Source of the DNA: Streptomyces sp. NBC_01267
GTDB lineage: Bacteria > Actinomycetota > Actinomycetes > Streptomycetales > Streptomycetaceae
DNA length: 64,000 bases
NCBI RefSeq assembly: GCF_036241575.1
Contig: NZ_CP108455.1
Coordinates: 7,795,001-7,859,000, forward strand
Reading direction: 5' to 3'
Shown: one piece after another, positions 6,938 through 57,930 of the stretch
Layout: each line of letters starts with the position of its first letter
How positions within the stretch are numbered: position 1 is the first letter of the stretch
The notes under the pieces: model-generated
Database searches by the model: none
The model's input: only the letters and a program-made list of their open reading frames with translations
Told to the model about the DNA's origin: nothing
Made by a program: the position numbers and the translations under genes

Positions 6938-9900
6938 ATGACCGAACCACTGGAGGCGGTCACTGCGGCGGTGCATGACCCGGACAAGGGACTCGCCGAG
7001 GTCATGGCCGCGGTACTGGAGGGCTACGGGGACCGGCCGGCCCTCGGCGAACGCGCAGCGGAAGCTTCGACAGCGCGGCTCCTCCCGAGGTTCGACACCA
7101 TCAGCTACCGCGAACTGTGGGCACGTGTCCGCGCGGTCGCCGGCACCTGGCACCACGATCCGCAGTATGCGTTGAGCGCGGGCGACCGGATCTGCATCCT
7201 CGGCTTCGCCAGCACCGACTACGCGACGCTCGACCTCGCCTGCATCCACTCCGGCGTCGTGTCCGTGCCCCTGCAGTCCAGTGCGCCACTGTCCCAGCTG
7301 ACGCCGATCATCGCGGAGACCGAGCCCCGCGCCCTCGCCACCAGCATCGAGCGTCTGGACACCGCGGTCGAAGCCGTGACCGAGGGAATCTCGATCCAGC
7401 ACATGATCGTGTTCGACTACCGTCCCGAAGTCGCCGACCAGCGCACCGCCTTCGAGTCCGCCCGGCGCCGCCTGGCCGAAGCCGGGCGGTCGGTGGCCGT
7501 CGACTCACTGGCCACGCTGATCGAACGCGGAGCCGAACTGCCGCCCGCGCCCCTGTTCACCGCCGACGCGGGAGACGATCCGCTGGCCCTGCTCATCTAC
7601 ACATCCGGCAGCACCGGGACCCCGAAAGGGGCCATGTACACCCAGCGGCTGGTCGGCACCGCGTGGTACGGGTTCGACTACGGTTCGGCGGACGGGCCCC
7701 CGGTCAGCATCCTCTACATGCCGCAGAGCCATCTCGCGGGCCGCTACGCCCTGATGGGCTCGCTCGTCCGGGGCGGTGTCGGCTACTTCACCGCCAGGAG
7801 CGACCTGTCCACCCTGTTCGAGGACATCGCGCTGATCCGGCCCACCGAACTGACCATGGTCCCGCGCCTGTGCGACATGCTCTTCCAGCAGTACCGGAGC
7901 GAACTGGGCCGCAGAGCCGGCGAACCGGGTGACGTCGAGACGGCGGTCAGGACGGACCTGCGCGAGAACTTCCTGGGCGGGCGCGTCGCCAAGGCGTTCT
8001 GCGGGACCGCCCCGCTGTCCGCAGAGGTGGCGGCCTTCGTCGAGTCCTGCCTGAACCTCCACCTGTACACCGGATACGGGTCCACAGAGGCCGGCGGAGT
8101 ACTGCTCGACACGGTGGTGCAACGCCCGCCGGTGATCGACTACAAGCTGGCCGACGTCCCCGAACTGGGCTATTTCCGCACCGACCTACCGCATCCGCGC
8201 GGGGAACTGCTGCTCAGGACGGAGAGCATCATTCCCGGGTACTACAAGCGGCCCGAGGTCACCGCCGAGATCTTCGACCAGGACGGCTACTACCGGACCG
8301 GCGATGTCATGGCCGAGGTCGGACCCGACCGGCTGGTCTACGTCGACCGCACCAAGGACACCCTGAAGCTGTCCCAGGGCGAATTCGTGGCCGTCTCCCG
8401 CCTGGAGACCGTCTTCGCCGGCAGCCCCCTCATCCGGCAGATCTACGTGCACGGCAACAGCGAACGCGCCTACCTGCTCGCGGTGGTGGTGCCCGCGCCC
8501 GACGCGCCGGCCGGCGGCGGCGAGGAGCCGGACCCACTCAAGGCGCTGCTCAGCGAGGCGCTCCAGCAGATGGCCAGGGAGGCCGAGCTCAACTCGTACG
8601 AGATCCCGCGTGACTTCCTGATCGAGGCCGAACCCTTCAGCCCGGAGAACGGTCTGCTCTCCGAGAGCCACAAACTGCTGCGCCCCAGGCTCAAGGAGCG
8701 CTACGGGGAGGCTCTCGACCGGCTGTACACCGAAATCACCGAGGGGCAGGACAGGCAGCTGCGCGACCTGCGCCGAACAGGGCCGGACCGGCCGGTGCTG
8801 GAGACGGTCACCCGGGCCGCCCAGGCGCTGCTGGGCTGTTCGAACTCCGCGCTCGGCGCCGACGCGCGCTTCACGGACCTGGGCGGGGACTCCCTCTCCG
8901 CGCTGTCCTTCTCCCAGCTCATGAAGGAGATCTTCCACATCGAGGTTCCGGTCGGGGTGGTCATCAGCCCGGCCAATGATCTGTCCCGGCTGGCGAGATA
9001 CATAGAGGCGGAACGCGTGCCCGGGGCGGAGCGGTCCACATTCGCTTCCGTACACGGCGAGAGCAGCACCGAAGTCCGCGCCGGTGACCTCACCCTGGAC
9101 AAGTTCATCGACGCGCCGACGCTCGCCGCCGCACCGGCTCTTCCCCGCCCCCGCGGCGCCGTGCGCACCGTCCTGCTGACCGGAGCCAACGGCTACCTCG
9201 GCCGGTTCCTCTGCCTGGAATGGCTGGAGCGGCTGGCACCCCCCGGCTCCAAGCTGATCTGCCTGGTACGCGCGAGCAACGCGGCTGCGGCGGCGCAGCG
9301 GCTTGAGGAGGCCTTCGACAGCGGGGACGCCGAACTGCTCCGGCGGTACCGGGATCTGGCCGAAGGGCCCCTGGAGGTACTCGCCGGTGACATCGGCGAG
9401 CCGTACCTGGGCCTGGACGAGGACACGTGGAACGGCCTGGCCGACACCGTGGACCTGATCGTCCACCCGGCTGCCCTGGTCAACCACGTACTGCCCTACC
9501 GGCAACTGTTCGGACCCAACGTCGTCGGCACGGCAGAACTGATCCGGCTGGCGCTCACCACGCGGATCAAGCCCGTCACCTACGTGTCCACCGTCGCCGT
9601 AGGAGCCGGAGCCGGGGCCGGGGCACCGGCCCCCGGGGAGGACGACGACATCCGCAGCACCAGTCCGGTGCGGCGGATCGACCAGAGCTACGCCAACGGG
9701 TACGCCACCAGCAAATGGGCCGGGGAGGTCCTGCTCCGGGAGGCGCACGACCTGTGCGGCCTGCCGGTCGTCACCTTCCGCTCGGACATGATCCTCGCGC
9801 ACAGCAGGTACCAGGGGCAGCTGAACGTCCCCGATCTGTTCACCCGCCTGCTGCTGAGCGTCCTCGCCACCGGCATCGCTCCGGCCTCGTTCTACCGGAC

Positions 9901-10345
9901 CGGTGACCGCGCGCACTACGACGGTCTGCCGGTCGACTTCACCGCAGAGGCCGTCACCGCGCTGGGCGTGGGGGCCACCGAGGGCTACCGGACCTTCAAC
10001 GTGCGGAACCCGCACGACGACTGCATCTCGCTGGACACCTTCGTCAACTGGCTGACGGAGGCAGGCCACCCGATCCGGCGGATCGACGACTACGGCGAAT
10101 GGCTCGCCCGCATCACGTCCGCGCTCCGCGCCCTGCCGGAGAGGCAGCGTCAGCACTCGCTGCTGCCCCTGCTGCACGCCTTCGCGCAACCCGAACAGGG
10201 CGTCCCTGGTCCGGCGATACCCGCAGACCGGTTCCGCGCTGCGGTGCGCGCCGCGAAGGTCGGCCCAGGCGAGGACATCCCCCATCTGTCTGCGGCCCTC
10301 GTGGGCAAGTACGTCGATGACCTGCGCCGGCTCGACCTGCTCTGA
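6938..10345 (+). CDS. Carboxylic acid reductase (adenylation, carrier, thioester reductase)
   Basis: A 1135-residue protein with the three-domain architecture of carboxylic acid reductases. Residues about 1-620 form an AMP-binding domain ([20 protein letters not shown]). A phosphopantetheine carrier carries LGGDSLSAL, serine 652. The reductase domain from about residue 740 has the NADPH motif TGANGYLGR and a Y-ATSK active-site pair in [14 protein letters not shown]. Such enzymes turn a free acid into an aldehyde using ATP and NADPH after 4'-phosphopantetheinylation. GGGAGG precedes ATG 6938. In this context the acid could be the product released by the synthase's thioesterase, giving an aldehyde for P450, SDR and ene-reductase chemistry. 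The substrate is inferred, not visible. Confidence 0.92.
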
Positions 10346-10449
10346 GGGCCGTCCCGGCCGCCGGGCTGCGGCCCACGCCGGGCCGCCCCCGTCGCTGAAC
10401 AGCCCGGAACGCCTTTTCGCCAGCCGCACATTCGACGAGAGACAGCGAG

Positions 10450-10836
10450 ATGGAAGTCGACATGGGACAGAACATCAGCGAGAAGGCGATGTCGTTTCTG
10501 CGCGGCCTGGAGGTGTACGACTTCGCCGGATGCCGGGCGATGTGCACCAGCAGGGCCACCGTGTGGCAGAACGACGGTCAGGGGGAGCGGGCGATCGACG
10601 CGACGCTGCAGCGGTTCCAGGCCTTTGCCGCTGACGTCGACGCGCTGCGGTACGACGTGATCCGCCAGTTCCGGAGTACGAACGAGGTCTTCCAGCAGCA
10701 GGTGCTCCACCTGAGTATGGCCGACGGGTCGGGCAGCAAGGTCCACGCCGCGGTCTACTTCCGGTTCGAGAGCGGCGGCCTCATCGACCGGATCGAGGAG
10801 TGCATCTACGCGGTCCCGACCGCCGGGACACCCTGA
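10450..10836 (+). CDS. SnoaL/NTF2-like protein
   Basis: A 128-residue protein with the length and pattern of the NTF2-like fold: an N-terminal helix (AMSFLRGLEVYDFAGCRAM), then CTSRATVWQNDGQ and alternating strands ending in FESGGLIDRIEECI. Members in natural-product clusters act as cyclases, hydrolases or isomerases on polyketide intermediates; others are just binding proteins. It closes the SDR-P450-reductase run, 104 bases after the reductase stop. A second possible start is ATG 10462. Catalytic residues cannot be assigned by eye. Confidence 0.75.
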   Translation: MEVDMGQNISEKAMSFLRGLEVYDFAGCRAMCTSRATVWQNDGQGERAIDATLQRFQAFAADVDALRYDVIRQFRSTNEVFQQQVLHLSMADGSGSKVHAAVYFRFESGGLIDRIEECIYAVPTAGTP

Positions 10837-11537
10837 CCTTCCCTCTGGAGCCCGGACCACCGAGGTGACGTCGGTCTTCAACCCACGATCAGAGAAGAGC
10901 AGGCTGCCCCCACCACCGCGGTTCTCCGGGCTGTTCACCGGCCGGTTCACGCGGGATCCGTGTGGTCGCCGGCCTTCGAGCTCCAGATCGGCGGGCGACG
11001 CTCGCGCCACGCCGCGGCGCCTTCTCCGACGTCGTCGGTACCCAGGAGGGCGAGGTGGGCGCGGGTCTCCTCCCGGTCAGCAGCATGTCGGCGGCGACGG
11101 CGAGGCCGACCGCGTGCCGCAGCGTGCAATGGGACTCGCAGTCACCGATCATGCCGCGCCGCACCTGTGGGACGGCCGGCTTAGACATGGATCGTGCCGC
11201 TCAACACCTTCTCCACCTGGGCGGGCGCGGGGGAAGTACGGCGTCCAGAACCCGGTGTCCGGGGCGGCCCTGGTGTCGAACTCTGGTGTCCGTTCTGGAC
11301 AGGGGGGCTGGGGGAGACCGGCGCGATGGGATTCGGCCAACGGGTTCACGTGGTCGCCAGGTGAAGTGGGTGCTGCGTGCGCCCTTCGATCAGTGGCGGG
11401 ACATCGGTCTGCGCGGCACGGGGCTGCGCCTTCAGGAGTGGGGCAGCGTCCTTGACGTGGAGATTCCGCGTTCCGCCGGGAGCCGTTTTCCGCGGGCCTG
11501 GTTGGCGGCGGCGTTTGAAGGGTGCCAAGGAGGGACG
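10837..11537. other. About 700 bases without an intact gene
   Basis: Between the SnoaL-like gene and the GTG at 11538 I see no ORF with an initiation signal and consistent codon bias. The only protein-like stretch is a frame-shifted relic on the minus strand at 10947-11160. The rest looks like decayed or spacer DNA. Confidence 0.5.
10947..11160 (-). pseudogene. C-terminal relic resembling enoyl-CoA hydratase/isomerase
   Basis: Reading leftward, one frame gives LRHAVGLAVAADMLLTG and, after a frame change near 11070, ETRAHLALLGTDDVGEGAAA and then WRERRPPIW. The second piece has the C-terminal pattern of crotonase-fold proteins, where an EG-x-x-A-x-x-x-(K/R)R-x-P-x-(F/W) ending is common. There is no start and no N-terminal half, so this is at most a remnant. 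The assignment rests on pattern memory only. Confidence 0.3.
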
Positions 11538-12002
11538 GTGGTATCGAATACCGAGGGCGGTGCTGCGGGAGATCGCGGCTACATCGACCCGTTGGAGGGA
11601 TCCCGGTCGCAGGCGATAAGCCGAGCCCGACGGCGAGGCGCCTACGAGAAGATCTCGTATAGGCGCCTTGCCCGTGGCTACAACGCCCGAAGTCGGCTGC
11701 TGTATCTGGAGGGCGGGGGATCGCAGGAGCTGACGGCGTTCTTCCTGTTGTCGACGGCATCGACCGCGGAGAACTTCGGCACGGTGGCGTCCTGGCCCGC
11801 AGTGCATCACCGGCCGGATGGAGGAGTCGACGTCTACGGCGATCACAAAGGGCTTGTGGACGCGTTCCGGGCACGGGTCAGGGCGCAGAAATTCACTCCG
11901 CAGGTCGTCCAGAGCATGGCAGAGGAGAACATCGTGCTGCGCGAAGCCCTGGCGAAGATCAAGACGGATCTGTCCGCACCGACCCTTCTCGGACTCTGCT
12001 GA
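11538..12002 (+). CDS. Hypothetical protein, 154 residues
   Basis: The GTG at 11538 is preceded by AAGGAGG at ideal spacing, which defines the start although the frame is open far upstream. Residues about 12-60 are basic (ISRARRRGAYEKISYRRLAR), followed by SRLLYLEGGGSQELTAFFLL and a segment that reads as an alpha/beta domain ending in EENIVLREALAKIK. I do not recognise the family; no membrane segment or signal peptide is visible. The gene contains an imperfect inverted repeat (11637-11669). It stands alone between a relic and a broken NRPS gene. Confidence 0.55.
   Translation: MVSNTEGGAAGDRGYIDPLEGSRSQAISRARRRGAYEKISYRRLARGYNARSRLLYLEGGGSQELTAFFLLSTASTAENFGTVASWPAVHHRPDGGVDVYGDHKGLVDAFRARVRAQKFTPQVVQSMAEENIVLREALAKIKTDLSAPTLLGLC
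11637..11669. repeat. Inverted repeat inside the hypothetical gene
   Basis: Left arm AGGCGCCTACGAGA (11637-11650) and right arm TCTCGTATAGGCGCCT (11654-11669) pair across a 3-base loop, with one 2-base bulge. The position near the 5' part of the mRNA could make a strong hairpin affecting translation. It could also be a chance product of codons. Confidence 0.6.
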
Positions 12003-12185
12003 CCGGCCCCGCACCCGCTGGGTGAGCCTGCGCAGCCAGGCATGAATTCCAGCCGTTTCACCCGCCCCGTCGACCTGCCCGATCACGGACCCGGATCTGT
12101 ACCAGGGAGATATATCGGCATAATTCTATAGTTGTGCGTTGGCTGAAACTGCTTCTCGCCGCGTAGCAGCTGTGAGAATAATTAC

Positions 12186-12200
12186 TGCAAATGCTTTGCA
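12186..12200. promoter_or_regulatory. AT-rich promoter-like segment with a 15-bp palindrome
   Basis: TGCAAA-TGC-TTTGCA is a perfect inverted repeat with a 3-base centre. It sits in an unusually AT-rich stretch (about 12110-12205) just before the truncated NRPS. It looks like an operator or promoter region that once served a complete gene. Confidence 0.45.
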
Positions 12201-12230
12201 TGGTCAACTGGGGGCTTCGTAGTTTCAGCG

Positions 12231-15200
12231 GTGGAGTGGCCCGCCGACCGCACCGCCTATGTCCTGGACGACGTCGCAACCCCCATCGTCATTACCCGGG
12301 ACCTGCCCGCAGGCCCCGGCCGCGTCCACCTCGATCCGCGGCAGCCCGCGACCGACGGCCCGGCGCCCGCCCCGCACATCCGCCCCGACCAGGCCGCGTA
12401 CATCATTTACACGTCCGGCTCGACGGGCACGCCGAAGGGCGTCGTCGTCCAGCACCGCTCCCTGAACCACCTCACAAGCACCCTGCAGGCCACCTTCCTC
12501 GGCCACGACCCGTATCTCGCCGGGGCCGACAGTGTGCCGCCCGGCGACAGGAAGCTGCGAGCGGCGCTCACCGCGCCGTTCACGTTCGACGCGTCCATGG
12601 AGCAGCTGAGCTGGATGCTGGCGGGTCACGAGCTGTTCATCGCGTCCGAGGATGTGCGCCGCGACCCCTCGGCCTTGGTCCGGTTCGTCGAGAAGCACCG
12701 GATCGACGTCATCGACACGACTTCGTCGCAGCTCGAACTCCTCATTTCCGCAGGTCTGTTGGAGGAGCAGTGGGCGCCTTCCATGGTCATGGTGGGCGGT
12801 GAGGCGGTCTCGCCGTCGCTGTGGCAGGCGCTGCGCGGCCAGCGGCGTGTCCGCTGCTTCAACCTCTACGGCCCTACCGAAGCGACCGTCGACGCGACCT
12901 GTCACGACCTCTCCGCGCCCGTTGACGTCCCCGTCATCGGCGCTCCCTTGCCGCATGTGCGGGTCCGTGTTCTCGACGCACACCTTCAGCCGGTGCCCGT
13001 CGGTGTCGCCGGGGAGATCTACCTCGGCGGCCTGGGACTCGCCCGCGGCTACGTCAACCGACCCGGTCTCACCGCCCAGCGCTTCATCGCTGACCCCTAC
13101 AGCAGCACCCCCGGCAGCCGCCTCTACCGCACCGGCGACCGTGCCCGCTGGCGCCCCGACGGCACCCTCGAATACCTCGGCCGCACCGACGACCAGATCA
13201 AGCTCCGCGGCTTCCGCATCGAACCCGGCGAGATCGAAGCCGCCCTCACCCACCACCCCACCGTCAAGGAAGCCGCCGTCATCGACGACGAGCACGCGCG
13301 GTTGATCGCCTATGTCACGCCCACGGTCGGGGGCGGGGCCGACCCCGCCGGCATTCGCCGCTTCACGCAAGGGCGACTGCCCTCGTACATGGTGCCGTCG
13401 GCGGTGGTGGTCCTGGACGCGCTGCCACTGACGCCGAACGGAAAGCTGGACCGCAGGCGCCTGCCGCTGCCCGAGGTGGGCAGGCCGGGACTGGACGTCC
13501 GCTTCGTGGCGCCGCGTGACATGGTGGAAGAGGTCGTGGCACAGGTCTGGTGCACCGTGCTCGGCGTCGACCGGGTCGGTGTGCACGACGACTTCTTCGA
13601 GCTGGGCGGGCACTCGCTGCTGTCGATCCAGGTGATTGCCCGGATCCGCAAGCTCCTCGGTGTCGAGGTACCGCTGCGGGCACTGTTCGACGCCGCGACG
13701 GTCGAGGAGCTGGCCGTCCGCGTCCGCGCCGAACAGGCCAAGGGCGTCGGCCACGGGGCTCCGGCCCTTGAGCCGGTGGACCGGAGCGGGCCGCTGCCGC
13801 TGTCGTTCGCGCAGCAACGCCTGTGGTTCCTTGACCAGTTGATGCCCGGCGGCGTCTTCTACAATATGTGCGACGCCTACCGGGTCCGCGGCCCACTCGA
13901 CCTGGATGCGCTGCAGCGGGCGCTGCGGATGCTGGTCGCGCGGCACGAGACGCTGCGGACGGCCTTCGTCGAGCGAGATGGTGTGCCCTACCAGGTCGTC
14001 TCGGCCCCAGACGCGCCCGGCGCGCGGCGCGTGGCGGAGATCGTGCGGATCGATCTGGCCGAGCGAACCGAGGGGGGTGTGCGGAACCTGGTGGCTGCAG
14101 AGGCGCGCACCCCGTTCCGGCTGGCGGACGGCGCGCTGATGCGTGTGGTGGCAGCCCGACTGGCGGACGAGGATCACGCACTGGTGGTCACCATGCACCA
14201 CATCGTCTCCGACGGCTGGTCGGTTGACGTCCTGGTGGACGAACTCGGGCGCCTCTACCGGGAATGCGTCACCGGCGCCCCCGCCGCACTGCCACGGCTG
14301 GATATCCAGTACGCCGACTTCGCCGTCTGGCAGCGGGCCTGGATGACCGGCCCGGTGCAGGAGAAGCAGATCGCCTTTTGGCAGCAGGCATTGGATGGCG
14401 CGCCCTTGGTGCTGCGCCTGCCTGCAGACTATCCGCGTCCCGCCGTCCAGTCCCATCGGGGCGAAACCGTAGAGTTCCCGCTGCCCGCACCGCTGGTCGC
14501 ACGGCTGGAAGCGCTCGGCCGGGAGCAGGGCGTCACCCTGTTCATGACGCTGCTCGGTGCCTTCCAGGTGCTGCTGGCGCGGTACGGCGGCCAGGACGAC
14601 GTGGTGGTGGGCGTGCCGACCGCGAACCGTACCCGCGCCGAGACCGAGCCCCTGGTCGGCTTCTTCGTCAACACCCTCCCTGTACGAGTCGGTTGCCGGC
14701 CGGAGCTGTCGTTCCGCGAGCTGCTCGACCGGGTGCGCGAGGCCTCGCTCGGCGCCTTCGCCCATCAGGACCTGCCCTTCGAGACGCTGGTCGAGACGCT
14801 CGCACCTGAACGGGACCTCAGCCACAACCCTCTCGTGCAGGTCACCTTCCAGCTCCTTGACGCTCCCGACGAAAAGCTCTCCCTGCACGGTACGGACTGC
14901 ACCTCGCTTGGCTTCGGCGGCGTGACCAGCCGGTTCGACCTGTCCCTCGACATCGTGTCGGGTCGCAAGGACATGCGGGGCGTGCTCACATACTGCCCCG
15001 ACCTCTTCAATCGGGCCCGCATGGACGTGCTGGTCGGCCACTACCTGACGCTGCTCGGCGCGGCGGCGGACGACCCCGGCCTCCGCATCAGCGACCTGCC
15101 GCTGAGCGATGCATCCGAGCGTCTCCGCCTGCTGGGCGAGTCCGGGCCGCAGTACACGCCCGGGACGGACACGGAGACGGTTCCGACCGCCTTCGCCGCG

Positions 15201-49413: not shown

Positions 49414-49830
49414 ATGGGGTTCAGGTACCGAAGCCGTGTCACGCGTGTGCTGACGGTGGCAGTCGCGCTCGCCGTCGTCGGTGGTGTCACTGCCGCGGCT
49501 ATTCAGACGCAGCACAACAAGGTGCGCGAGACGGGGCTGACCGGCACGGCCAAGCTGTACCGCAAGGCCGGGGACGACATCCATTTCACGTTCGACGTCC
49601 ACGGCCTTGTGGGAAAGGCCCATGGCACGTTCAGCTTCAGCCACTACGGCGGGAAGATCGGCACGGGCGGCGGCTACGCCACCGGGCGCACGCCGTACGC
49701 CCCGCCCCGGGCTCCGGCCGAACTCCTCGCCCAGCTGCGCGCCGACCGGCGCGCCGTGCAGTGGGTGCCGGTCTTCGAGCGGGAGTCGGGTGTCAAACTG
49801 GCGACCTCGCGTAATCGACTGACGCCTATT
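49414..49830 (+). pseudogene. Membrane-anchored or secreted protein cut off by the recombinase locus
   Basis: ATG 49414 starts a protein with a hydrophobic segment (VTRVLTVAVALAVVGGVTAA) and a beta-rich part (LTGTAKLYRKAGDDIHFTF; GTFSFSHYGGKIGTGGGYAT). Then follows PPRAPAELLAQLRADRRAVQ, which may come from another gene (a DUF6247-like start, low certainty). Beyond about 49830 the frame runs through the antisense of the zinc-ribbon recombinase, so the original C-terminus is missing. I interpret it as a gene truncated by insertion of the recombinase trio. Confidence 0.5.
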
Positions 49831-49854
49831 CCTTGGTCATTGAGGCGCTGGTTG

Positions 49855-51318
49855 TCACCGTGTGTGGTCGCCGGGGGCATAGTGGCGCCAGGTTCCTCCT
49901 GCCTCGGCGGCGAGCTGGGCGGTGGTGTCGTCGTGGTAGCCGAGCATGCGGGCGATCACGGGTGCGGGAGCCTGGAGAACGAGGTGGCGGATGGCCGCCG
50001 TGCGTCCTCGCTGGGTGGGGAAGCCCAGGTGGCGAAGCCTGAGTTCGAGCGTGTGCGGGGTCATGGGCTGTCCAGCCCTGCGGCCGGGAAAGAGCCACCG
50101 GGCGTTGGGGTTGGTGGCGGTCATGGTGTTCGGTCGCTGGTCGAGATAGGTCAGCAGCATTCCGGCAAGCGGTTCGGGGACGGGCGAGGGAGGATCGCCG
50201 AGCCGGACCAGAACCTCGCCGTCCTCGTGAAGAACATCGTCGGTGGTGAGCCGAGCGATCCGGGTGAGCGGTTGCGCGTAAAGGAGGACGAGCGCGGCGA
50301 CCACACGGTCCTGGAGCGGAATGTCGCCTTGGTCGACGGCCTGCCGCAACAGGGTCAGTCGCTGGTGTTGAGCGAGCGGGGCGGGGTTGCTCGTGGAGCG
50401 ATGCGAGACGGCGACCTTGAGCAGGTGTTTGGACCGCATCGCCCATCGCAGAAAGGCGTGGGTCAGGCGCCGGGCGGTGTAGCCACCCGCGTACCAAGTA
50501 TCGACATCGGCCTGCGTGCACTCGGCGAGGGTCCGCCCTCGCTCGGCGAGGTGATCGAGAAAGGCGGTCGCGAGACGAATCTCGTTGCGGGCCTGCTGAA
50601 CCTGCTTACTGGTGAGCGGGCCGCGGTCGGCCAGGGAGTTCAGACGGCGCTGAACGTGCCAGGTCGCGAAGAGCTCCAGAAGCCGCCGGTGCCCGGCGTC
50701 GCCGACGGCAGGCAGTTTCTCGGCGAGCCACCGCTGGAACAGCAGCAGCTGCCGGTCAGCCGGGGGCAGGACGCCGCTCTGCATGAGCAGGTCGCGCAGG
50801 TAAGCGACCGATCGCCAGGGGTGGAGCTGGCTCAGGCCGTCGTGCGTGAGCGGAACCTCTTTCAAGGCGAGAGCGCGCAGGTTGCGCTGAGTGTGGGGCT
50901 TATTAGTCCAGGTCAGGGCGCCCCACGGGCGGCGGATCTGCCGTAGAGCGTCGAACAGCGGGAGCAGTTCGGCGTGGACGGAGCCGGTGCCGTCGTCGAG
51001 GAGTTCGCGGAGCCGCTCGGTCAGGACGCATCGGCCGCAGACCCCGCGCCGGTATCGTCTGGCCTCCTGGCCGCATTGCTCGCAGAAGAAGTCACCGATC
51101 CCGCCGGCGCAGTCGGAGCAGAGCTTCCCGCCGTCCGCCGCGAGGCCGGGAGTGAGCCGCTCGACTCCGCATCCGGTGCAGGTCCCGTAGGTCTCCAGAG
51201 CTCTGGTCATGCAGCTCCGGCAGATGTAGCCCTCGGGCCAGTGGTTCGCCCCCAGCCGCAGTGCACGGTCGCAGCGGGTGCAGAACAGGTCCTCGGCGCG
51301 GACGCGGGTGCGGCTCAT
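49855..51318 (-). CDS. Zinc-ribbon tyrosine-recombinase-like protein
   Basis: A 487-residue protein from ATG 51318, behind GGAAGG, its ATGA overlapping the XRE stop. The first 120 residues contain repeated Cys pairs (CTRCDRAL, CRSC, CTGCGVER, CSDC, CEQCGQEA, CGRC), suggesting three zinc ribbons. The rest resembles a phage-integrase fold: LLYAQPLTRIARLTTDDV for box I, then TAAIRHLVLQAPAPVIARML and GYHDDTT, and a C-terminal WRHYAPG with Y480 as candidate nucleophile. Box II HxxR is replaced by AxxR. It may be an active divergent recombinase or an accessory DNA-binding partner. It is the third gene of a coupled trio. Confidence 0.8.
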   Translation of the reverse strand: MSRTRVRAEDLFCTRCDRALRLGANHWPEGYICRSCMTRALETYGTCTGCGVERLTPGLAADGGKLCSDCAGGIGDFFCEQCGQEARRYRRGVCGRCVLTERLRELLDDGTGSVHAELLPLFDALRQIRRPWGALTWTNKPHTQRNLRALALKEVPLTHDGLSQLHPWRSVAYLRDLLMQSGVLPPADRQLLLFQRWLAEKLPAVGDAGHRRLLELFATWHVQRRLNSLADRGPLTSKQVQQARNEIRLATAFLDHLAERGRTLAECTQADVDTWYAGGYTARRLTHAFLRWAMRSKHLLKVAVSHRSTSNPAPLAQHQRLTLLRQAVDQGDIPLQDRVVAALVLLYAQPLTRIARLTTDDVLHEDGEVLVRLGDPPSPVPEPLAGMLLTYLDQRPNTMTATNPNARWLFPGRRAGQPMTPHTLELRLRHLGFPTQRGRTAAIRHLVLQAPAPVIARMLGYHDDTTAQLAAEAGGTWRHYAPGDHTR

Positions 51319-51641
51319 CCTTCCGGCCGGATGCGGGCGCGCTTGGGACGGATCGCCGACAGGTCGACGACCGCATCGCCGGTGGCGACCCTGCGGACGG
51401 TGGCGTTCTCTGCCCTGGTGGCGATCAGGTCGGCCGGGGTGCAGTCGAAGATGTCGCAGAGCGCGGCCAGGACCGGCAGCGACAGCCGCTCGGGGGTGCC
51501 GGTGACGAGCCGGTGGACCTGGGACAGGGAGAGGTTGATGCCGCGCTCGGCGAGGGGCGGGGCGAGCTCGCTGGTGGTGAACATTCCGGCCGTGGCCATC
51601 TTCTCGCGCAGTCGCCACTGGTAGCTGACCTGGCGTTTCAT
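51315..51641 (-). CDS. XRE-family helix-turn-helix protein
   Basis: A 108-residue protein from ATG 51641, behind GAGGAG. It overlaps the stop of the interrupted recombinase and the start of the zinc-ribbon protein, both as ATGA. The helix-turn-helix covers about residues 8-75: LREKMATAGMFTTSELAPPL, INLSLSQVHRLVTGTPERLS, LPVLAALCDIFDCTPADLI. It is a Cro/C1-type DNA-binding protein of the YozG-like kind. In this locus it may regulate the recombinases or help shape the recombination complex. Confidence 0.9.
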   Translation of the reverse strand: MKRQVSYQWRLREKMATAGMFTTSELAPPLAERGINLSLSQVHRLVTGTPERLSLPVLAALCDIFDCTPADLIATRAENATVRRVATGDAVVDLSAIRPKRARIRPEG

Positions 51642-51774
51642 CGAGCACTCCTCGCGGGCTTGAGCGCGGCCTCGATGGTGGCGTCCAGCGCCCGCCGCAG
51701 AGTGCGGGTGCGGAAGTCGGAGGACACGCAGGTGTAGATGGAGGTGGTGGACGCGTGGTCGTGGCCGGCCTGTT
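51638..51774 (-). pseudogene. 3' fragment of the interrupted tyrosine recombinase
   Basis: This is the C-terminal 45 codons of a tyrosine recombinase: QQAGHDHASTTSIYTCVSSD with the active-site His and the Tyr nucleophile in IYT, then TRTLRRALDATIEAALKPA. Its 5' portion lies 4 kb away at 55789-56800, beyond the Tn554-like element. Joined at the shared GTCCAGC core the two halves give one uninterrupted frame of about 382 residues. Its TGA overlaps the XRE ATG. Confidence 0.9.
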
Positions 51775-51876
51775 GCTGGACTATCTTGAGCTCCTTTGCT
51801 CGGCAGGCCGTTGACCTGCGCGTTTGTTTCACGGTTGTTGTCCATGACGTGTCGGACGAGAGCATGCATTGGCCTT

Positions 51877-52320
51877 TCAGCACGGGCCGATCGTTACTGA
51901 GCTGGGATTGCCCGCACTCGTGCGTGGCGGGCGTGTTCGAGTGCTCGCGGCGCGTTGTTCGCCGAGGGCCTGAGCGAGTTGCTCGCGCAGTTGTCGGTTC
52001 TCCTCGGTGAGCCGCTGGATGCGAGTGTTCGCGGCTTCGAGTCGCCGTAGCAGGGAGGCATCGGAGGTGCGCTGGCGTGCGGGAACGGGGGATGCGGGGG
52101 CTCGGCGGTGTGTTGCTCGCAGATGCTCGATCTCCGTTCGCAGGTCCGGCTGGGCATAGAGCCAGGAGCGGGAGACTCGTGCTCGTTTCGCGACGGTCTC
52201 GAAGGTGACTGGTTCGCCCGCGGCATCCAGAGCGCGGAGTGCCTGGATGGCCTTGGAGCGGGTGTACTCGCTTCGGCGCCGGGCGGCGTCGACGATGTGC
52301 TGGCTGTTGTCAGCTCGCAT
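51877..52320 (-). CDS. tnpC: TnpC-like accessory transposition protein (DUF6262-type)
   Basis: A 147-residue protein starting at ATG 52320, overlapping the tnpB stop by 11 bases. The N-terminal half is helix-turn-helix-like (SKAIQALRALDAAGEPVTFE; VAKRARVSRSWLYAQPDLR). It is followed by a coiled-coil stretch (LLRRLEAANTRIQRLTEENR, QLREQLAQAL) and a disordered tail. This matches TnpC of Tn554-type transposons, which is not essential but improves efficiency and orientation of insertion. It is the last gene before the element's low-coordinate end, 95 bases away. Confidence 0.88.
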   Translation of the reverse strand: MRADNSQHIVDAARRRSEYTRSKAIQALRALDAAGEPVTFETVAKRARVSRSWLYAQPDLRTEIEHLRATHRRAPASPVPARQRTSDASLLRRLEAANTRIQRLTEENRQLREQLAQALGEQRAASTRTRPPRTSAGNPSSVTIGPC

Positions 52321-54562
52321 CGGCGGTCGCCTCCGGCTGGTCGGGGTCGGATTCCAAGGTGGTGATGATCTGCTCCAGGTTGCCCAGGACCTGCTGGTTC
52401 ATCTCGACCACCCGTGCTTGGCCGCGGGCCTCGGCGGCGGAGACGATCTGCAGCAACTGCTGGCGTTGTTCCCGGTGTTGTGGCAGGAACTCCGGGGTGG
52501 TGACGAACATCGGGCAGGTCAGGCAAGCATTGGCATGCGGACAGGTCTTCTGCACCGGCAGACCGCAGTAGCCGTTGGGCAGGGCCTGGGTCACGCGGCC
52601 GAGCCGCTGCTTGGCCCAGGTAGCCTCGGCCAGCGGACCATCGGGGTCGACGGTGACGCTCTCGCCCTTGATGTTGACCTTGCGGGCCTTCTCCCAGTGC
52701 CGGCGGACCGTGGTGTCGTGCAGCCGGGCGTAATGCGCGGTCATCTCACCCGAGGAGTGATCAAGAAGGACACGTACGACTTCCTGCGGGACGTCCCGGT
52801 TGATCAGCCTGGTTCCAAAAGTGTGGCGCCATTGGTGGGGTGTCAGGTGCACTGCCCGGCCGTGCTCGTCGCGGACGTCGCAGCGTTCCAGCCAGAGGTC
52901 AAGCTGTCCGCGGTAGGAGTGCGTGGTCAGTGGCCGGGTGCCGTCGGGGTTCATCCGCGGGGCCGGGAACAGCCACCGGCTGCCGCCGGGCCACCGCTCC
53001 AGGACGCGCTGCTGCTGGACGGTGATCTCGCCCTCGACCTCCTCGTCGATGGGGACCAGGGCCTCGCGTTTCATCTTCCGGTTGAGATAGCGCAGGTAGC
53101 CGGCGCCATCGGCGTCCCGGACGATGCAGTCGAAGGCCAGGTTGCAGGCGTCACCGACCCGCAGCCCGCACCGCATGAGAATCAGGGTGAGCAGGCGGCC
53201 CTCGGAGTTGTGCCAGCGGTCGAGGTTGGCGGGCTGCTCGACCTGGGCCATGACCTGCTCGGCCAGCGCCCGGGGCAACCGCTTGTCGGGACGGGGGAAG
53301 TCGTCGGGGTAGAAGGTCGCGTTGGCCGGAAGGGTCTCGTCCCAGCCGTGGCGGCGCATGGCATGGAAGAACGCGTTCAGCGAGCCGATGTCCCGGCCTC
53401 GCGAGTGGACCGACCGCGGGTCGACGGAGAGATCGGCCAGATAGCGTTCGAGTACCTTCCGGTCCACCGCAGCCAGACCACTCGCGGCGACACGTGGGTC
53501 GGCCAGGAAGCCGGAGAACCGGTTGAGCGCGAGGATGTCGACGACGGCCTGGTTGATGCTGCGGCCGATACTGAGCCGCCAGCGCACGAACCTCTTGGCC
53601 GGCTCCCGTAGCCACGGCTGGGCGATGCGGTCGAACCGCAACCGGGCCCGGGTGCCCTCGATCCCGAGCCGACGCAGCACCCACACATCGCGGGGGAACT
53701 CGCTCTCCCAGCCGCTGCCGCAGGCGAGATCCTCCAGATGCTCGTGCGCGTAGCGCAGGAACGCAAGCTGTCCGTTCTGGTCGTGGCTGGCGCCGCGCAT
53801 CGCGGCGAAGTGCTCGCTCCATTGCTCCATCGGCCACTCCAGCAAGGAACTTGCCTCGCTGGCGGCGGTCAGCCGGATCACCGGCGAGACGGCCGAGCTG
53901 TGGGTGTTGACCTGGCGCTCGTCGTGGCGGCACTGCAGCGCGTACTGAAGTTCCAGCTTGAGCTGACGCTTGTCGTCCAGCGACCGGAAGTCGAAGCGGT
54001 CGTCTCCGGCGGCCTCGCAGCGGCGTACGAACTCCTCGATCTCGGGGCTGCCGACGGCATACCAGCGGGATTTGTGGTTGTGGCAGAACGGCGACTTCCC
54101 CTGGGTCCACAGGGTGCAGAACGACAAGCGGCAGATCGGGCGGCCGTTGTCGGTGACGGCCGGCAGACTCGCCACCCACTTCTTCTTCTCGGGCTTGTCC
54201 GCCCGTTCCCAGAAGCCGTGATGGCGCACGCACAGACCTTGGCGGGCCGCACCGTAGCGGCAGCCGGTGACGAAGCATTCGGTCAGTTCAGTCCGCCCGA
54301 CCGGGCCGGGGCCGGGATCGGCGATGAACGCTTCGATGTCCGGGCCTCCGCGCCGCTGCCAGCGGTAGTAATGACCGCGGCAGAGCTGACGGGTGCGGGG
54401 CTGCCGTGGACAGTCGGGAACCCGGCAGGCTCCCAGCCCGAAGATCAGTTCTCCCGGAGCGGGGATGAACACATCGACGCGGAACTCCGGCCGGACCGCG
54501 GCCATGAGTTTGCCCAGCAGTCCTGAGCCGGGAAGGGGAACGGCAGGAGTCGACTCGCTCAC
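52310..54562 (-). CDS. tnpB: TnpB tyrosine recombinase of the Tn554-like element
   Basis: A 750-residue protein from GTG 54562, overlapping the tnpA stop by 4 bases. The N-terminal 200 residues contain three Cys-Cys-Cys-His clusters (CRVPDCPRQ...CRGHYYRW; CFVTGCRYG...CVRHHGFW; CRLSFCTLW...CHNHKSRW), likely zinc fingers. The catalytic domain has R468 (CGLRVGDA), H576-x-x-R579 (HQWRHTFGTR), H602 (LLDHSSGEM) and nucleophile Y611 (HYARL). A C-terminal CPHANACLTCPMF cluster and coiled coil follow. It is longer than Tn554 TnpB, but the core layout is the same. All active-site residues are present. Confidence 0.92.
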   Translation of the reverse strand: MSESTPAVPLPGSGLLGKLMAAVRPEFRVDVFIPAPGELIFGLGACRVPDCPRQPRTRQLCRGHYYRWQRRGGPDIEAFIADPGPGPVGRTELTECFVTGCRYGAARQGLCVRHHGFWERADKPEKKKWVASLPAVTDNGRPICRLSFCTLWTQGKSPFCHNHKSRWYAVGSPEIEEFVRRCEAAGDDRFDFRSLDDKRQLKLELQYALQCRHDERQVNTHSSAVSPVIRLTAASEASSLLEWPMEQWSEHFAAMRGASHDQNGQLAFLRYAHEHLEDLACGSGWESEFPRDVWVLRRLGIEGTRARLRFDRIAQPWLREPAKRFVRWRLSIGRSINQAVVDILALNRFSGFLADPRVAASGLAAVDRKVLERYLADLSVDPRSVHSRGRDIGSLNAFFHAMRRHGWDETLPANATFYPDDFPRPDKRLPRALAEQVMAQVEQPANLDRWHNSEGRLLTLILMRCGLRVGDACNLAFDCIVRDADGAGYLRYLNRKMKREALVPIDEEVEGEITVQQQRVLERWPGGSRWLFPAPRMNPDGTRPLTTHSYRGQLDLWLERCDVRDEHGRAVHLTPHQWRHTFGTRLINRDVPQEVVRVLLDHSSGEMTAHYARLHDTTVRRHWEKARKVNIKGESVTVDPDGPLAEATWAKQRLGRVTQALPNGYCGLPVQKTCPHANACLTCPMFVTTPEFLPQHREQRQQLLQIVSAAEARGQARVVEMNQQVLGNLEQIITTLESDPDQPEATADAS

Positions 54563-55668
54563 CAGCGGACCTCCCGCCCGGTCAGAAACCCGGCGTCCTC
54601 CAGGGCGCGACGGGCGTCCTCGACGGACAAGTGACCGTAAATATCGAGCGTGGTGGCGATCGAGGAATGGCCGAGCAAAGTACTGACCACCTCGATGGGC
54701 ACCTTTCGGCGCAGGAGCAAGGTGGCCCGGGTGTGCCGGAACCAGTGGGGGTCGAAGTCGATGCCGGTGGCGCGGCGGATCCGCAGCACCAGGTCGTAGA
54801 CCGCCGCGTAGGTCAGGGGGTGCCCGTAGGCACCGCCCCAGAGGTTGACGAACATGTAGTCGCTGTCCAGATCGCCGTACTCATCGTGGAGATAGTCCGC
54901 GTAGAGCCGGATGATCTCAGGGCCGACGGGAACGGTTCGGGGCGAGGCGGACTTGGCCCGAGCCCGGTTGTCATTGATTCGCGGAGTGACGATCAACTCG
55001 CCTTCCGCCGCGGCGAGATCCTCGTGACGGAGACCAAGGGCCTCGCCGATCCGGATCCCGGTCTCCCACAGCAGGGCGAACAAGAACCGGTCCCGAAGCC
55101 GGGTGCAGGCATCCAGGATCGCCTGGACCTGGGCGGCGGTCAGGATGGTCGGGTGCATGCGAGGGGTCTTCAGCTTGATCGTGCGGCGTCGCTCGGGTTC
55201 GCCGCCGGCCAGGTGATACAGAAACGGCTTCCAGCCCGTGCGCCGGGCACGGACCGGCTGCAGCTCGGTGACCAGATCGCCGAGGTCCACGCCGTGACGG
55301 GCGTGGAAGACGTACAGACCACTGACCGCCGACAGCTTCCGGTTGACCGTGGTCACCCCGCAGTGATGCTCCGCCGACGGCAGCAACGCGACCCTGCCGT
55401 CACGGCCCGCAGGCGGCAACCGGAGCCAGGCAACGAACTCGCCCAGGTCCTCCAGCCGCACCTCGCGCCAGTCCAGACCACTCCGGCCGAGGAAGACGAA
55501 CCAGTCCTTCAGATCATGGGCGTATGCCTTGACCGTGTTCGGTGACCGCTCGATGTCGGTTAGGTAGGCCAGGTAACTCTCGATCGGCTTGACTATCCCA
55601 CCCTCGTCGCCGAGGACCGTCCACGACTCAAGCGACGAGGCGGGCATCAACACCCTCTGCACCAACAT
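54559..55668 (-). CDS. tnpA: TnpA tyrosine recombinase of the Tn554-like element
   Basis: From ATG 55668, directly behind CCAGGAGGTCTG, the protein has 369 residues, close to Tn554 TnpA. The frame extends upstream to 55722, but that segment lacks a ribosome site. An N-terminal SAM-like core-binding domain (PIESYLAYLTDIERSPNTVK) precedes the catalytic domain with R206 (ETGIRIGEALG), H308-x-x-R311 (HWFRHTR), H334 (LLGHSSIATT) and nucleophile Y344 (DIYGHLS). TnpA and TnpB act together in cutting and joining the element at its core. The active site is complete, so the element may still be mobile. Confidence 0.93.
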   Translation of the reverse strand: MLVQRVLMPASSLESWTVLGDEGGIVKPIESYLAYLTDIERSPNTVKAYAHDLKDWFVFLGRSGLDWREVRLEDLGEFVAWLRLPPAGRDGRVALLPSAEHHCGVTTVNRKLSAVSGLYVFHARHGVDLGDLVTELQPVRARRTGWKPFLYHLAGGEPERRRTIKLKTPRMHPTILTAAQVQAILDACTRLRDRFLFALLWETGIRIGEALGLRHEDLAAAEGELIVTPRINDNRARAKSASPRTVPVGPEIIRLYADYLHDEYGDLDSDYMFVNLWGGAYGHPLTYAAVYDLVLRIRRATGIDFDPHWFRHTRATLLLRRKVPIEVVSTLLGHSSIATTLDIYGHLSVEDARRALEDAGFLTGREVRW

Positions 55669-55788
55669 CAGACCTCCTGGAAAACTGCGTGATGGACGGC
55701 CGTAGATAACCACCTCCACCACACAGATCTCCGCTCACCCCAGGCTCGTGCTGCACGTCGTGGACACACCACAGAGGACTCAAGAGAA

Positions 55789-56800
55789 GCTGGACGAACA
55801 GGGGGTCCATGCCGTCTTCGATCAGATGGGTGACGTAAGACCTGCGTAGCGAGTGGAAGTCCAGGACCGGGTCCAAGCCGAGATCGTCGCGGTAGGCGGC
55901 AAAGCGGGAGTCCAGCCGTTGCAGGCCCACTCGCCGCCCGCGTTCGGAAGGCCACAGGGCTGGCCCGTCCGCGTGCCGCATGGCGGGCCGGACCTCGCTC
56001 GTCCACTGGTCGAGGATCTCGGCCGACCACTCCCATACCGTCAGCACGCTGCGGCGTTTGGGCGGCGATCCCTTCTTCGCCTTGCCATGGCGGACGTAAC
56101 AAATGCCGAACTCACCGAACTCCGCTCCTTCGGGGTTACGGCCGAAGTCCGCGGTGTCCAGCATCCGGGTCTCATTGCGGCGCAGTCCGAATGCGTACGC
56201 GGTCTTGAACAACATCGCGTCGCGGAAGGCGGGCAGCCAGCCTTTGCGACCGCGTCCGCGGACGCGCTCGACCTGGTCGTCGGCGTAGTCGAAGAATGTC
56301 TGCAACTCGTCCCGGGTGAAGGCCCGTTTCGGGGCTTCTGCCTCGCACTCCTGCATGTGCACGGCGGTGTTCCACTCGTGGCAGACCTGGATCGGATGGG
56401 TCCCGAAGCGCCGTTCGCACTCGGCCGCCCACTCGTAGGCGGGGTCGGTGGTGTAGTCGCAGAACAGCCGTACCGCTTCCTGGTAGCCCCGGAGCGTCGA
56501 ACGTCCGCAGCCGTGAACCGACCGCAGGTCGCCGAACCACTCGTCGGCCAGCGGCGAGGACCAGTTCCACGGGAAGGCGTCAGCGTGAGCGGCGAACGCC
56601 CGCACCTTGCGCTCGCGGCCGTTGATGGTCGACAGCGCGAGGTTACGGGCCAGCTGCTGGTTGCGCCAGCCGTCCAGCATCGCTTCGAAGACCTGCTCGT
56701 CCGGCCGGAGCAGCGGCACCCCGTCGGCCAGGTGAAGCCGTGCGGCCCCCGGCGCCGCCCTGTTGTTGCTCACCACATTGTCACGCTCCGTAGATCGCAT
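55789..56800 (-). pseudogene. 5' part of a tyrosine recombinase interrupted by the Tn554-like element
   Basis: The first 337 codons of a phage-integrase-family protein, from ATG 56800 (GTG 56776 or 56773, behind GGAG, are possible real starts). Visible are the core-binding domain (STINGRERKVRAFAAHADAF), box I FGLRRNETRML and box II FHSLRRSYVTHLIEDGMDPL. After FVQ at the GTCCAGC core the host sequence stops and the frame runs about 53 codons into the transposon. The missing His and Tyr residues are in the fragment at 51638-51774. Whole, it is the first gene of the recombinase-XRE-zinc-ribbon trio. Confidence 0.9.
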
Positions 56801-56814
56801 TCGCCGCGAGAATC

Positions 56815-57006
56815 TCGCATCAGATGCGAAGCGTGGAGCGGAACGGCAGGTCAGCCATCCGATCGAGTGAAGCGGAACGACATGGACCCGTCCTGTCGGT
56901 TACCGTCCCAGCAGGCCATGGAGAACCACCTACCTGCTGATCAGCGGCTTCCCGGCGCCGCCTGACCAATGCGGCGCAAGGTGACGCCAGTTCGCATCAG
57001 ATGCGA
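56815..57006. repeat. Two identical 15-bp palindromes upstream of the recombinase trio
   Basis: TCGCATCAGATGCGA occurs at 56815-56829 and again at 56992-57006, 177 bp apart, each a perfect inverted repeat around CAG. A further half-site, TCGCATTCG, lies near 56795. They are candidate operators for the XRE protein or binding sites for the trio's recombinases near the end of that element. Confidence 0.7.
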
Positions 57007-57073
57007 TAAGCGCCGGTTCCGAGATACGCACCAAAGGGGCCACGGGATGATCTTGAAGCCTGATCCGCTCGGA

Positions 57074-57930
57074 TTACGTGCGGCGACGTGCAGCGGGGTC
57101 GCGTCCGGCGACGTGCCGGGCGGCCGAGTCGACGCCGGGACGGGCGTACCGCTCCAGGGAGCGGACGGAGGTGTGGCGGGAGCGGGCCAGCAGCATCGGG
57201 GTAGAGGTGCCGTCCTCGGCGTCGTGCGTCAGGGCACTGTGACGTAGCCGATGCAGCGTCCAGCCGTCCAGATCCTCGATGTCGTCGGGTGAGGCGAGGG
57301 GGTTGGCCACCAGCCGGGTGTTCTCCTCGAAGATCTCCTCAGCGCGGTGGTAGGAGAGCCGGGCCCGGCCGGTCTCCGGGCACACGTCGAGCGTCGGTGT
57401 TCCGTCGTAGAACATCTTCCACTGCGTCTTCTCCCGGAGCGCGACGTCGAGGCGCCACAGGGCGGCGATCTGGTTCTCCGCGAAGCTTGGTGCGGTCCGG
57501 CGGTGCCGGCCGCCGCTCGATGCCGATCGTGGGATCGCCGTCGATCCAGCCTTGGCGCTGCCACCAGCCGATCGCCTTGCGGGCGATGCACAGTTCACGG
57601 TTGACGGTGCCGGCGTCCTATCCCGTCCGCCCGCGCGGCGGCCAGCTCGGCCAGGACTTCCGGCAGTGCCGCTTCGTGACGCCCGCGCCGGTGAGGTAGC
57701 GCTCGACCGCCGCGGTGTACGACGCGGGCGGGGCGGACAGCGGTACGACCCGCCCGCGCGGCAACCGAAGCGCGCCCCCGCTCCCGAGCTCGGTCACCGG
57801 TTCGATCGTCACGCCGTCCCACCCTTCCGGCACTGCCGCAGCAAATGCGTACACCTCGCACCGGCGGCCGGAATGCCCCGCCGCAGGTCGCGGTGATCAC
57901 GGTAGGGCTCCGCCGCAGTAAATCCGGCAT
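57074..57930 (-). pseudogene. Frame-shifted integrase (tyrosine recombinase)
   Basis: Pieces of one integrase lie in three frames. An N-terminal stretch reads SYTAAVERYLTGAGVTK (about 57690-57860). A middle stretch reads ELCIARKAIGWWQRQGWIDG then DPTIGIERRPAPPD (about 57500-57600). An intact C-terminal domain reads ENQIAALWRLDVALREKTQW, LHRLRHSALTH (box II), SRHTS and ERYARPG (nucleophile Tyr) to the stop at 57074. At least two frameshifts separate them. It is a dead integrase, independent of the neighbouring trio. Confidence 0.75.

Follow-up and report, generated by a model that had tools for sequence, protein, structure and literature searches.

A cargo-free Tn554-type transposon at a conserved site in a Streptomyces tyrosine-recombinase gene, with relatives in other recombinase and transposition genes

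We analysed a 64,000-nt stretch of Streptomyces sp. NBC_01267 (NZ_CP108455.1, positions 7,795,001 to 7,859,000; hereafter the window), in which a three-gene element lies between the two halves of a tyrosine-recombinase gene. The host unit and the nested element comprise the following features, in window positions:

49790–57058, minus strand: host mobile unit including the nested element; approximate limits, from the ends of similarity to L180, L182 and L183
55789–56800, minus strand: N-terminal part of the host recombinase, ending ...HSLRRSYVTHLIEDGMDPLFVQ; matches PF00589 up to position 151 of 172
51638–51774, minus strand: C-terminal part of the host recombinase, QQAGHDHASTTSIYT..., with GH and Tyr
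51315–51641, minus strand: host unit gene 2, Cro/C1-type HTH protein (PF13443)
49855–51318, minus strand: host unit gene 3, Cys-rich recombinase-like protein; no Pfam hit; gene order the same in host relatives
51775–55788, minus strand: Tn554-type element, left arm to end of right core, 4,014 bp
55789–55794, minus strand: left 6-bp core TCCAGC, from the target according to the footprint rule
55779–55788, minus strand: left arm TTCTCTTGAG, from the sequence; same arm at 12 left ends of the named-genome set, variants elsewhere
55755–55766, minus strand: subterminal repeat TGTCCACGACGT, inverse of the right-end subterminal repeat at 11/12 positions (sequence reading)
54559–55668, minus strand: tnpA, tyrosine recombinase (PF00589, 7.4e-31); ORF extendable to a GTG at 55722
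52310–54562, minus strand: tnpB, long tyrosine recombinase (PF00589, 5.8e-21), overlapping tnpA by 4 bp
51877–52320, minus strand: tnpC, DUF6262 (Pfam, 2.1e-15), same direction as tnpA and tnpB
51839–51850, minus strand: subterminal repeat ACGTCATGGACA near the right end (sequence reading)
51781–51790, minus strand: right arm CTCAAGATAG; most other copies that have a right end show CTCAAGATAA
51775–51780, minus strand: right 6-bp core TCCAGC, from the donor according to the footprint rule and here the same as the left core

The element contains tnpA, tnpB and tnpC only, and all three are open. Translation of tnpA more likely begins at the ATG at 55668, which stands behind an AGGAGG, than at the GTG at 55722; the Met at 55668 aligns with Met1 of the Tn554 protein. 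In comparison with a plasmid record annotated as Tn554, TnpA is 35% identical to transposase A (E 4e-73) and TnpB 33% identical to transposase B (E 1e-73), with the R, HxxR, GH/DH and Y motifs aligning in both proteins, and the third gene of that record also matches DUF6262, as tnpC of the window does. An earlier sequence-only reading, which had proposed a Tn554-type element with three intact genes, is thus borne out. A UPF0758 gene adjoins tnpA in the plasmid record. Tn554 itself is inserted in radC; the window insertion is not in radC (att554), its host being a tyrosine-recombinase gene.

The same reading had stressed the absence of cargo, which is true yet ordinary: 23 of the 36 copies given two ends by script measure 3.95–4.08 kb (the right ends that the script gave L112 and L154 are unreliable). 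Larger close copies of 4.8–5.4 kb are L089, L090, L091, L092 and L162, and some close copies carry 0.8–1.4 kb extra. By reading, L045 and L040 include a protein-kinase-like gene and L039 a phosphotransferase-like gene. The copy L041 (G007, 9159–15083) reads as decayed: its hybrid tnpA runs into sequence resembling gene 3 of the host unit, it lacks tnpB, and genes like those for ABC transporters and regulators precede the right end.

The arms TTCTCTTGAG and CTCAAGATAG are imperfect terminal inverted repeats that face the 6-bp cores, likewise in other copies, so that the inverted arms had been placed correctly beside the core at both ends. The core itself had been given as GTCCAGC. This 7-mer is indeed the overlap at the join in the window, but the conserved core is 6 bp long and lies between 10-bp arms; it reads TCCAGC in the window, and TCCAGG, TGCAGG, TGCAAT, TTCAGC or further variants in other copies. 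The seventh shared base does not hold generally, as other copies have a G there or a core that differs elsewhere; since only 6 bp are conserved, the 7-mer is partly this host's own sequence. Bases similar to the subterminal repeats of the window are kept in the right ends of sister clades.

Comparison with uninterrupted relatives supports the borders to the base. In all three relatives compared (L182, L183 and L184), whose junction-adjacent blocks are 84–89% identical to the window host, the host blocks meet with an overlap of exactly 7 bp, GTCCAGC, which is the join predicted for a base-precise 4,014-bp element splitting a tyrosine-recombinase gene. Uninterrupted relatives encode the same residues across the junction. 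Of 392 same-genus genomes, 89 have host homologues (E <= 1e-45), and among the matches listed, 28 of the 29 host loci besides the window are uninterrupted at the site, with one (L069) filled. Among these uninterrupted loci, L062 has another host-type unit inserted 15 codons beyond the site, and L074 has a stop codon beside the core. The genome of the window itself yielded one TnpA match (E <= 1e-20) and one host match (E <= 1e-45). The other strain of the species (G358) gave no host match at E <= 1e-45 and a TnpA of only 46% identity, so there is no within-species empty site to compare.

The host is a repeated three-gene unit that is apparently itself mobile: three copies in one genome are 100% identical over exactly 3,943 bp (L171–L173), and host-type units of about 5 kb are repeated in two other genomes (L174–L176 and L177–L179). 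The host enzyme of the window is cut after LFVQ, which severs the GH and Tyr motifs, so it is very probably inactive. By reading, host-type units also seem to lie inside tyrosine-recombinase genes: a close relative of the host, L180 (G089), is split by another host-type unit after ...STTSIYT, and L174, L175, L177 and L178 have left flanks that resemble the ends of other recombinases (LGH...Y). A C-terminal integrase fragment at 57074–57598 directly adjoins the outer end of the host unit. Outside the window, G000 C1 103213–106940 holds three consecutive Phage_integrase matches on one strand, possibly another recombinase cluster.

TnpA matches (E <= 1e-20) were found in 82 of 392 same-genus genomes. 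In all four other same-genus genomes with a TnpA at least 90% identical, the element occupies the same codon between the host halves; their TnpA proteins are 91–92% identical and their hosts 44–69% identical to those of the window. The decayed copy L041 belongs to one of these four genomes. A scan of named genomes with TnpA gave 79 loci (the best 79 of 134), and in this set 18 of the 20 loci with at least 70% TnpA identity and a readable left flank are at this site; independent cases are fewer than counted, because L091, L092 and L162 duplicate three of the four same-genus loci and L097 and L156 share 99.99% identity over 15 kb. The copies that occupy the site span Streptomyces, Embleya, Streptosporangiaceae bins, Mycobacterium, Nocardia, Arthrobacter and a Pseudonocardiales bin. 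In all 11 host halves scanned, the PF00589 match ends at the junction, at profile position 151 of 172, in agreement with the earlier proposal of a specific target inside the recombinase catalytic domain.

Two loci among the 20 are exceptions: L100, which lies inside the TnpA clade of recombinase-target copies but whose left flank was not recognised and for which no right end was found, and L104, with 70% TnpA identity, in a Tn3-type gene. By reading, L104 (1108–2304 and the right flank) shows opposed Tn3-type N-terminal parts, as recombination between two insertions would produce. The 20 do not include L096, which has no flank, or L160, which lacks a recognisable left end and whose right end abuts a host C-half. 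Empty sites that do not match the predicted join, or relatives with other borders, had been named as findings that would speak against the assignment, and within the clade our search found none except L100. No relative emerged from a scan of viral contigs with TnpA, which gave 14 pattern matches.

Thirteen of the 17 right ends read in the clade have a start codon (12 ATG, 1 GTG) 29 codons ahead of the junction, in a frame open into the host C-half (51638–51865 in the window); this mini-ORF is absent in L089, L090, L101 and L162. In a codon-position test on 14 of these ends, the differences at positions 1, 2 and 3 were 0.43, 0.31 and 0.39, values that do not form a coding pattern, and in sister clades the stretch is kept as DNA. 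With no coding signature, we do not claim a fusion protein from the right-end mini-ORF.

A footprint in which the target core stays at the left and the donor core arrives at the right has been described for SEs (PMC10214605) and seen with Tn554 relatives (PMC12486829), according to the excerpts of both papers. Sequence comparison points to this footprint in one clear case and one supportive pair. The clear case is L094 in Embleya, where the element is inverted within the same gene: at the left, it borders on the reversed C-half of the host through a core that reads as host; at the right, it carries TCCAGC, the core of the non-inverted copies, facing the reversed end of the host N-half. Of that N-half, 17 residues are recognisable (82% identical, E 5e-5) and the remainder was not found. 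In the supportive pair, L095 and L097, the elements of two Mycobacterium species share 99.6% identity over 4,056 bp, with no other same-strand block at E <= 1e-10, which suggests recent movement, and the right core of L095, TGCAAG, is the left core of L097. Unequal left and right cores in L092, L097, L103 and L162 agree with a target-left, donor-right footprint, and the equal cores of the window, L089, L098 and L102 are uninformative. We dropped L105 and L170 as a second footprint case: their elements are 96% identical and their left flanks differ, but the entire right flank is common to both, which makes recombination between copies the probable origin.

We next consider the wider family, counting a left flank as readable when the left end can be recognised and 120 bp or more of flank is present. 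This leaves 54 of the 79 named-set loci (the best 79 of 134), with L111 and L112 set aside by hand before the count; L110, L114, L116–L120 and L160 have no recognisable left end, and the rest have too little flank. By our placement, 48 of the 54 readable left flanks lie in recombinase or transposition genes: 18 are at the recombinase site, 10 in IS5-type, eight in IS256-type, five in Tn3-type, four in IS1380-type and three in TniB-type genes, with six unplaced (L100, L107, L150, L153, L154 and L164). Of the 48 placements, 33 are based on Pfam matches of the flank, eight on tblastn to the window host, and seven only on a motif or on overlap with a relative (L104, L127, L128, L137, L146, L151 and L159).

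Junctions recur at set points of the target domains. The IS256 junction falls at profile position 338 of 379 in six flanks and at 337 in one, the eighth piece (L128) having no hit, and the IS1380 junction lies at 351–352 of 435 in all four left flanks, of which two score under the curated cut-off. For Tn3, the DUF4158 junction is at position 47 of 165 in three of four; the IS5 DDE domain starts at 35 of 200 in both flanks compared, and the TniB junction is at 149 of 189 in one flank. L139 and L143 match DDE_Tnp_1_4 below the curated cut-off. No Pfam hit was found in the flank pieces of L104 (both sides), L127, L128, L146 and L159 or in the right piece of L149.

In a first TnpA tree, made by a quick method with 90 rows, the recombinase-target copies form a clade of 22 rows, L100 included, with SH-aLRT 100. 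The second tree has 87 rows, with L162 and L163 rebuilt and L050, L051, L054 and L055 left out. It requires 10 changes of target class, compared with 26–35 in 300 shuffles, over 54 labelled rows that are not the same as the 54 flanks, as they include the window, L043, L044, L046, L047 and L109 and some duplicates. Since target class follows the TnpA tree in this way, targets are inherited and occasionally switched. A more distant clade of 46–47% TnpA identity (L046, L047, L049 and L052) lies antisense in a gene that reads as DUF5999-like.

Altogether, we put at about 90% the probability that the window holds a cargo-free actinobacterial Tn554-type transposon whose attachment site is conserved DNA in the tyrosine-recombinase gene of another mobile unit. 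Comparison among copies shows its borders, target specificity and mobility and, in one clear case, its footprint. The attachment site lies between HxxR and GH...Tyr, with the cut between FVQ and xQxGH. TnpA and TnpB, with TnpC, most likely circularise the element ends around a 6-bp spacer from the left flank of the donor, and the circle would then recombine within the 6 bp of the target, so that the target's own 6 bp remain at the left and the donor's 6 bp arrive at the right. Strand bias and the role of each protein are our inference. Severed before its catalytic His and Tyr, the host enzyme is probably dead. Sister clades have similar arms with other cores and lie in IS256, IS5, IS1380, Tn3-type and TniB-type genes. 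Movement genes of other mobile elements are, by the flanks compared, the usual landing places of the family, probably because such sites are common, often repeated within a genome and harmless to the cell.

The sequence-only reading had gone on to suggest that one recombinase system might silence a rival reversibly, with precise excision restoring the host recombinase, as in developmentally excised elements. The two cores of the window are identical, so that precise excision would leave an open host gene, and uninterrupted relatives encode the same residues across the junction. We nonetheless consider it very improbable, as no excised form was seen and the left and right cores are unequal in several other copies, as expected of a strand-biased process that leaves a footprint. 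Nor do hosts seem to be kept functional, given the stop codon beside the core of L074 and the mere remnant of an N-half in L094. PMC10214605 records that SEs circularise without leaving an empty site and that the matter has not been evaluated for Tn554.

Even less probable, in our judgement, is an old insertion inherited with the host unit, its position shared by common descent rather than by current specificity. Some loci do have flanks in common, namely the right flank of L105 and L170 and the surroundings of L097 and L156, but common descent is contradicted by the near-identical elements of L095 and L097 in unalignable hosts, by hosts only 44–69% identical around TnpA proteins 91–92% identical, and by the inverted copy L094. 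A third alternative is that the family does not favour mobile genes as such. It may simply use any conserved coding motif, with mobile genes prevailing among its targets only through their abundance and repetition, and we regard this as a serious contender, somewhat short of even odds. The apparent placement of the 46–47% TnpA clade in a DUF5999-like gene, the target radC of Tn554 and the six unplaced left flanks all fit it; on the other side, the 48 placed flanks are spread over six or more unrelated classes of recombinase or transposition gene, between which the family has switched repeatedly.

Tn5053-type "res hunters" and group II introns in mobile DNA also have other mobile elements as their usual targets; their enzymes and target features differ from those of the window element. 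Like Tn554 and related transposons of Staphylococcus, Enterococcus and Listeria, the window element encodes TnpA, a long TnpB and a DUF6262 TnpC in one direction. It is unlike Tn554 in its target, a recombinase gene instead of radC, in a TnpA only 35% identical, and in its lack of resistance cargo. It shares with Tn554-related transposons, as the excerpts of PMC10214605 and PMC12486829 describe them, a specific target, no long target duplication and a 6–7 bp right-end footprint. Actinobacterial Tn554-related transposons were already defined in 2012 by Van Houdt and others (PMC3414803), and by that description the window element belongs to the class, with the same gene set and host groups. Section 10 of that paper left attachment sites open, whereas here they are placed at single codons of recombinase or transposition genes.

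Two further comparisons help to delimit the element. With SEs it shares, according to the excerpted text of PMC10214605, two tyrosine recombinases, arms around a 6-bp core, and a target core at the left with a donor core at the right. SEs, which that text reports only in Gammaproteobacteria, have four core genes, intA-tfp-intB-srap, whereas the window element has three and does not qualify as an SE, whose set includes tfp. Like RIT elements (about 3.5 kb and cargo-poor in the excerpts of PMC3414803), it is small and free of cargo, but RIT elements have three adjacent tyrosine recombinases, and TnpC of the window is a DUF6262 protein with no recombinase match.

A systematic pattern of landing in recombinase or transposition genes was not reported in the literature that we searched in full text, mostly outside subscription journals. 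Single cases of related elements in transposase genes have been recorded: an SE inserted into insJ of IS3 (PMC10214605, as excerpted) and, among RIT types, one inside a Tn6049-like transposase gene; another RIT type lies in radC of an ICE (PMC3414803, as excerpted). It is tempting to see actinobacterial Tn554 relatives as hyperparasites of mobile elements, with subclades tuned to one motif of a rival family (tyrosine recombinase, IS256, IS5, IS1380, Tn3 or TniB) that arise by motif switch, each landing immobilising the rival for good because transposition copies out without restoring the target. We advance this only tentatively. A safe, common and repeated landing site probably explains the pattern, and selection to disable rivals is possible too. 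For the family, attachment sites that section 10 of the 2012 paper left open (PMC3414803) can now be read as single codons in genes that move other mobile elements. In their target sites, footprints and switches of target, the copies form a natural series from which to learn how a tyrosine-recombinase pair acquires a new sequence, and they offer a clear case of mobile elements habitually breaking one another's enzymes.
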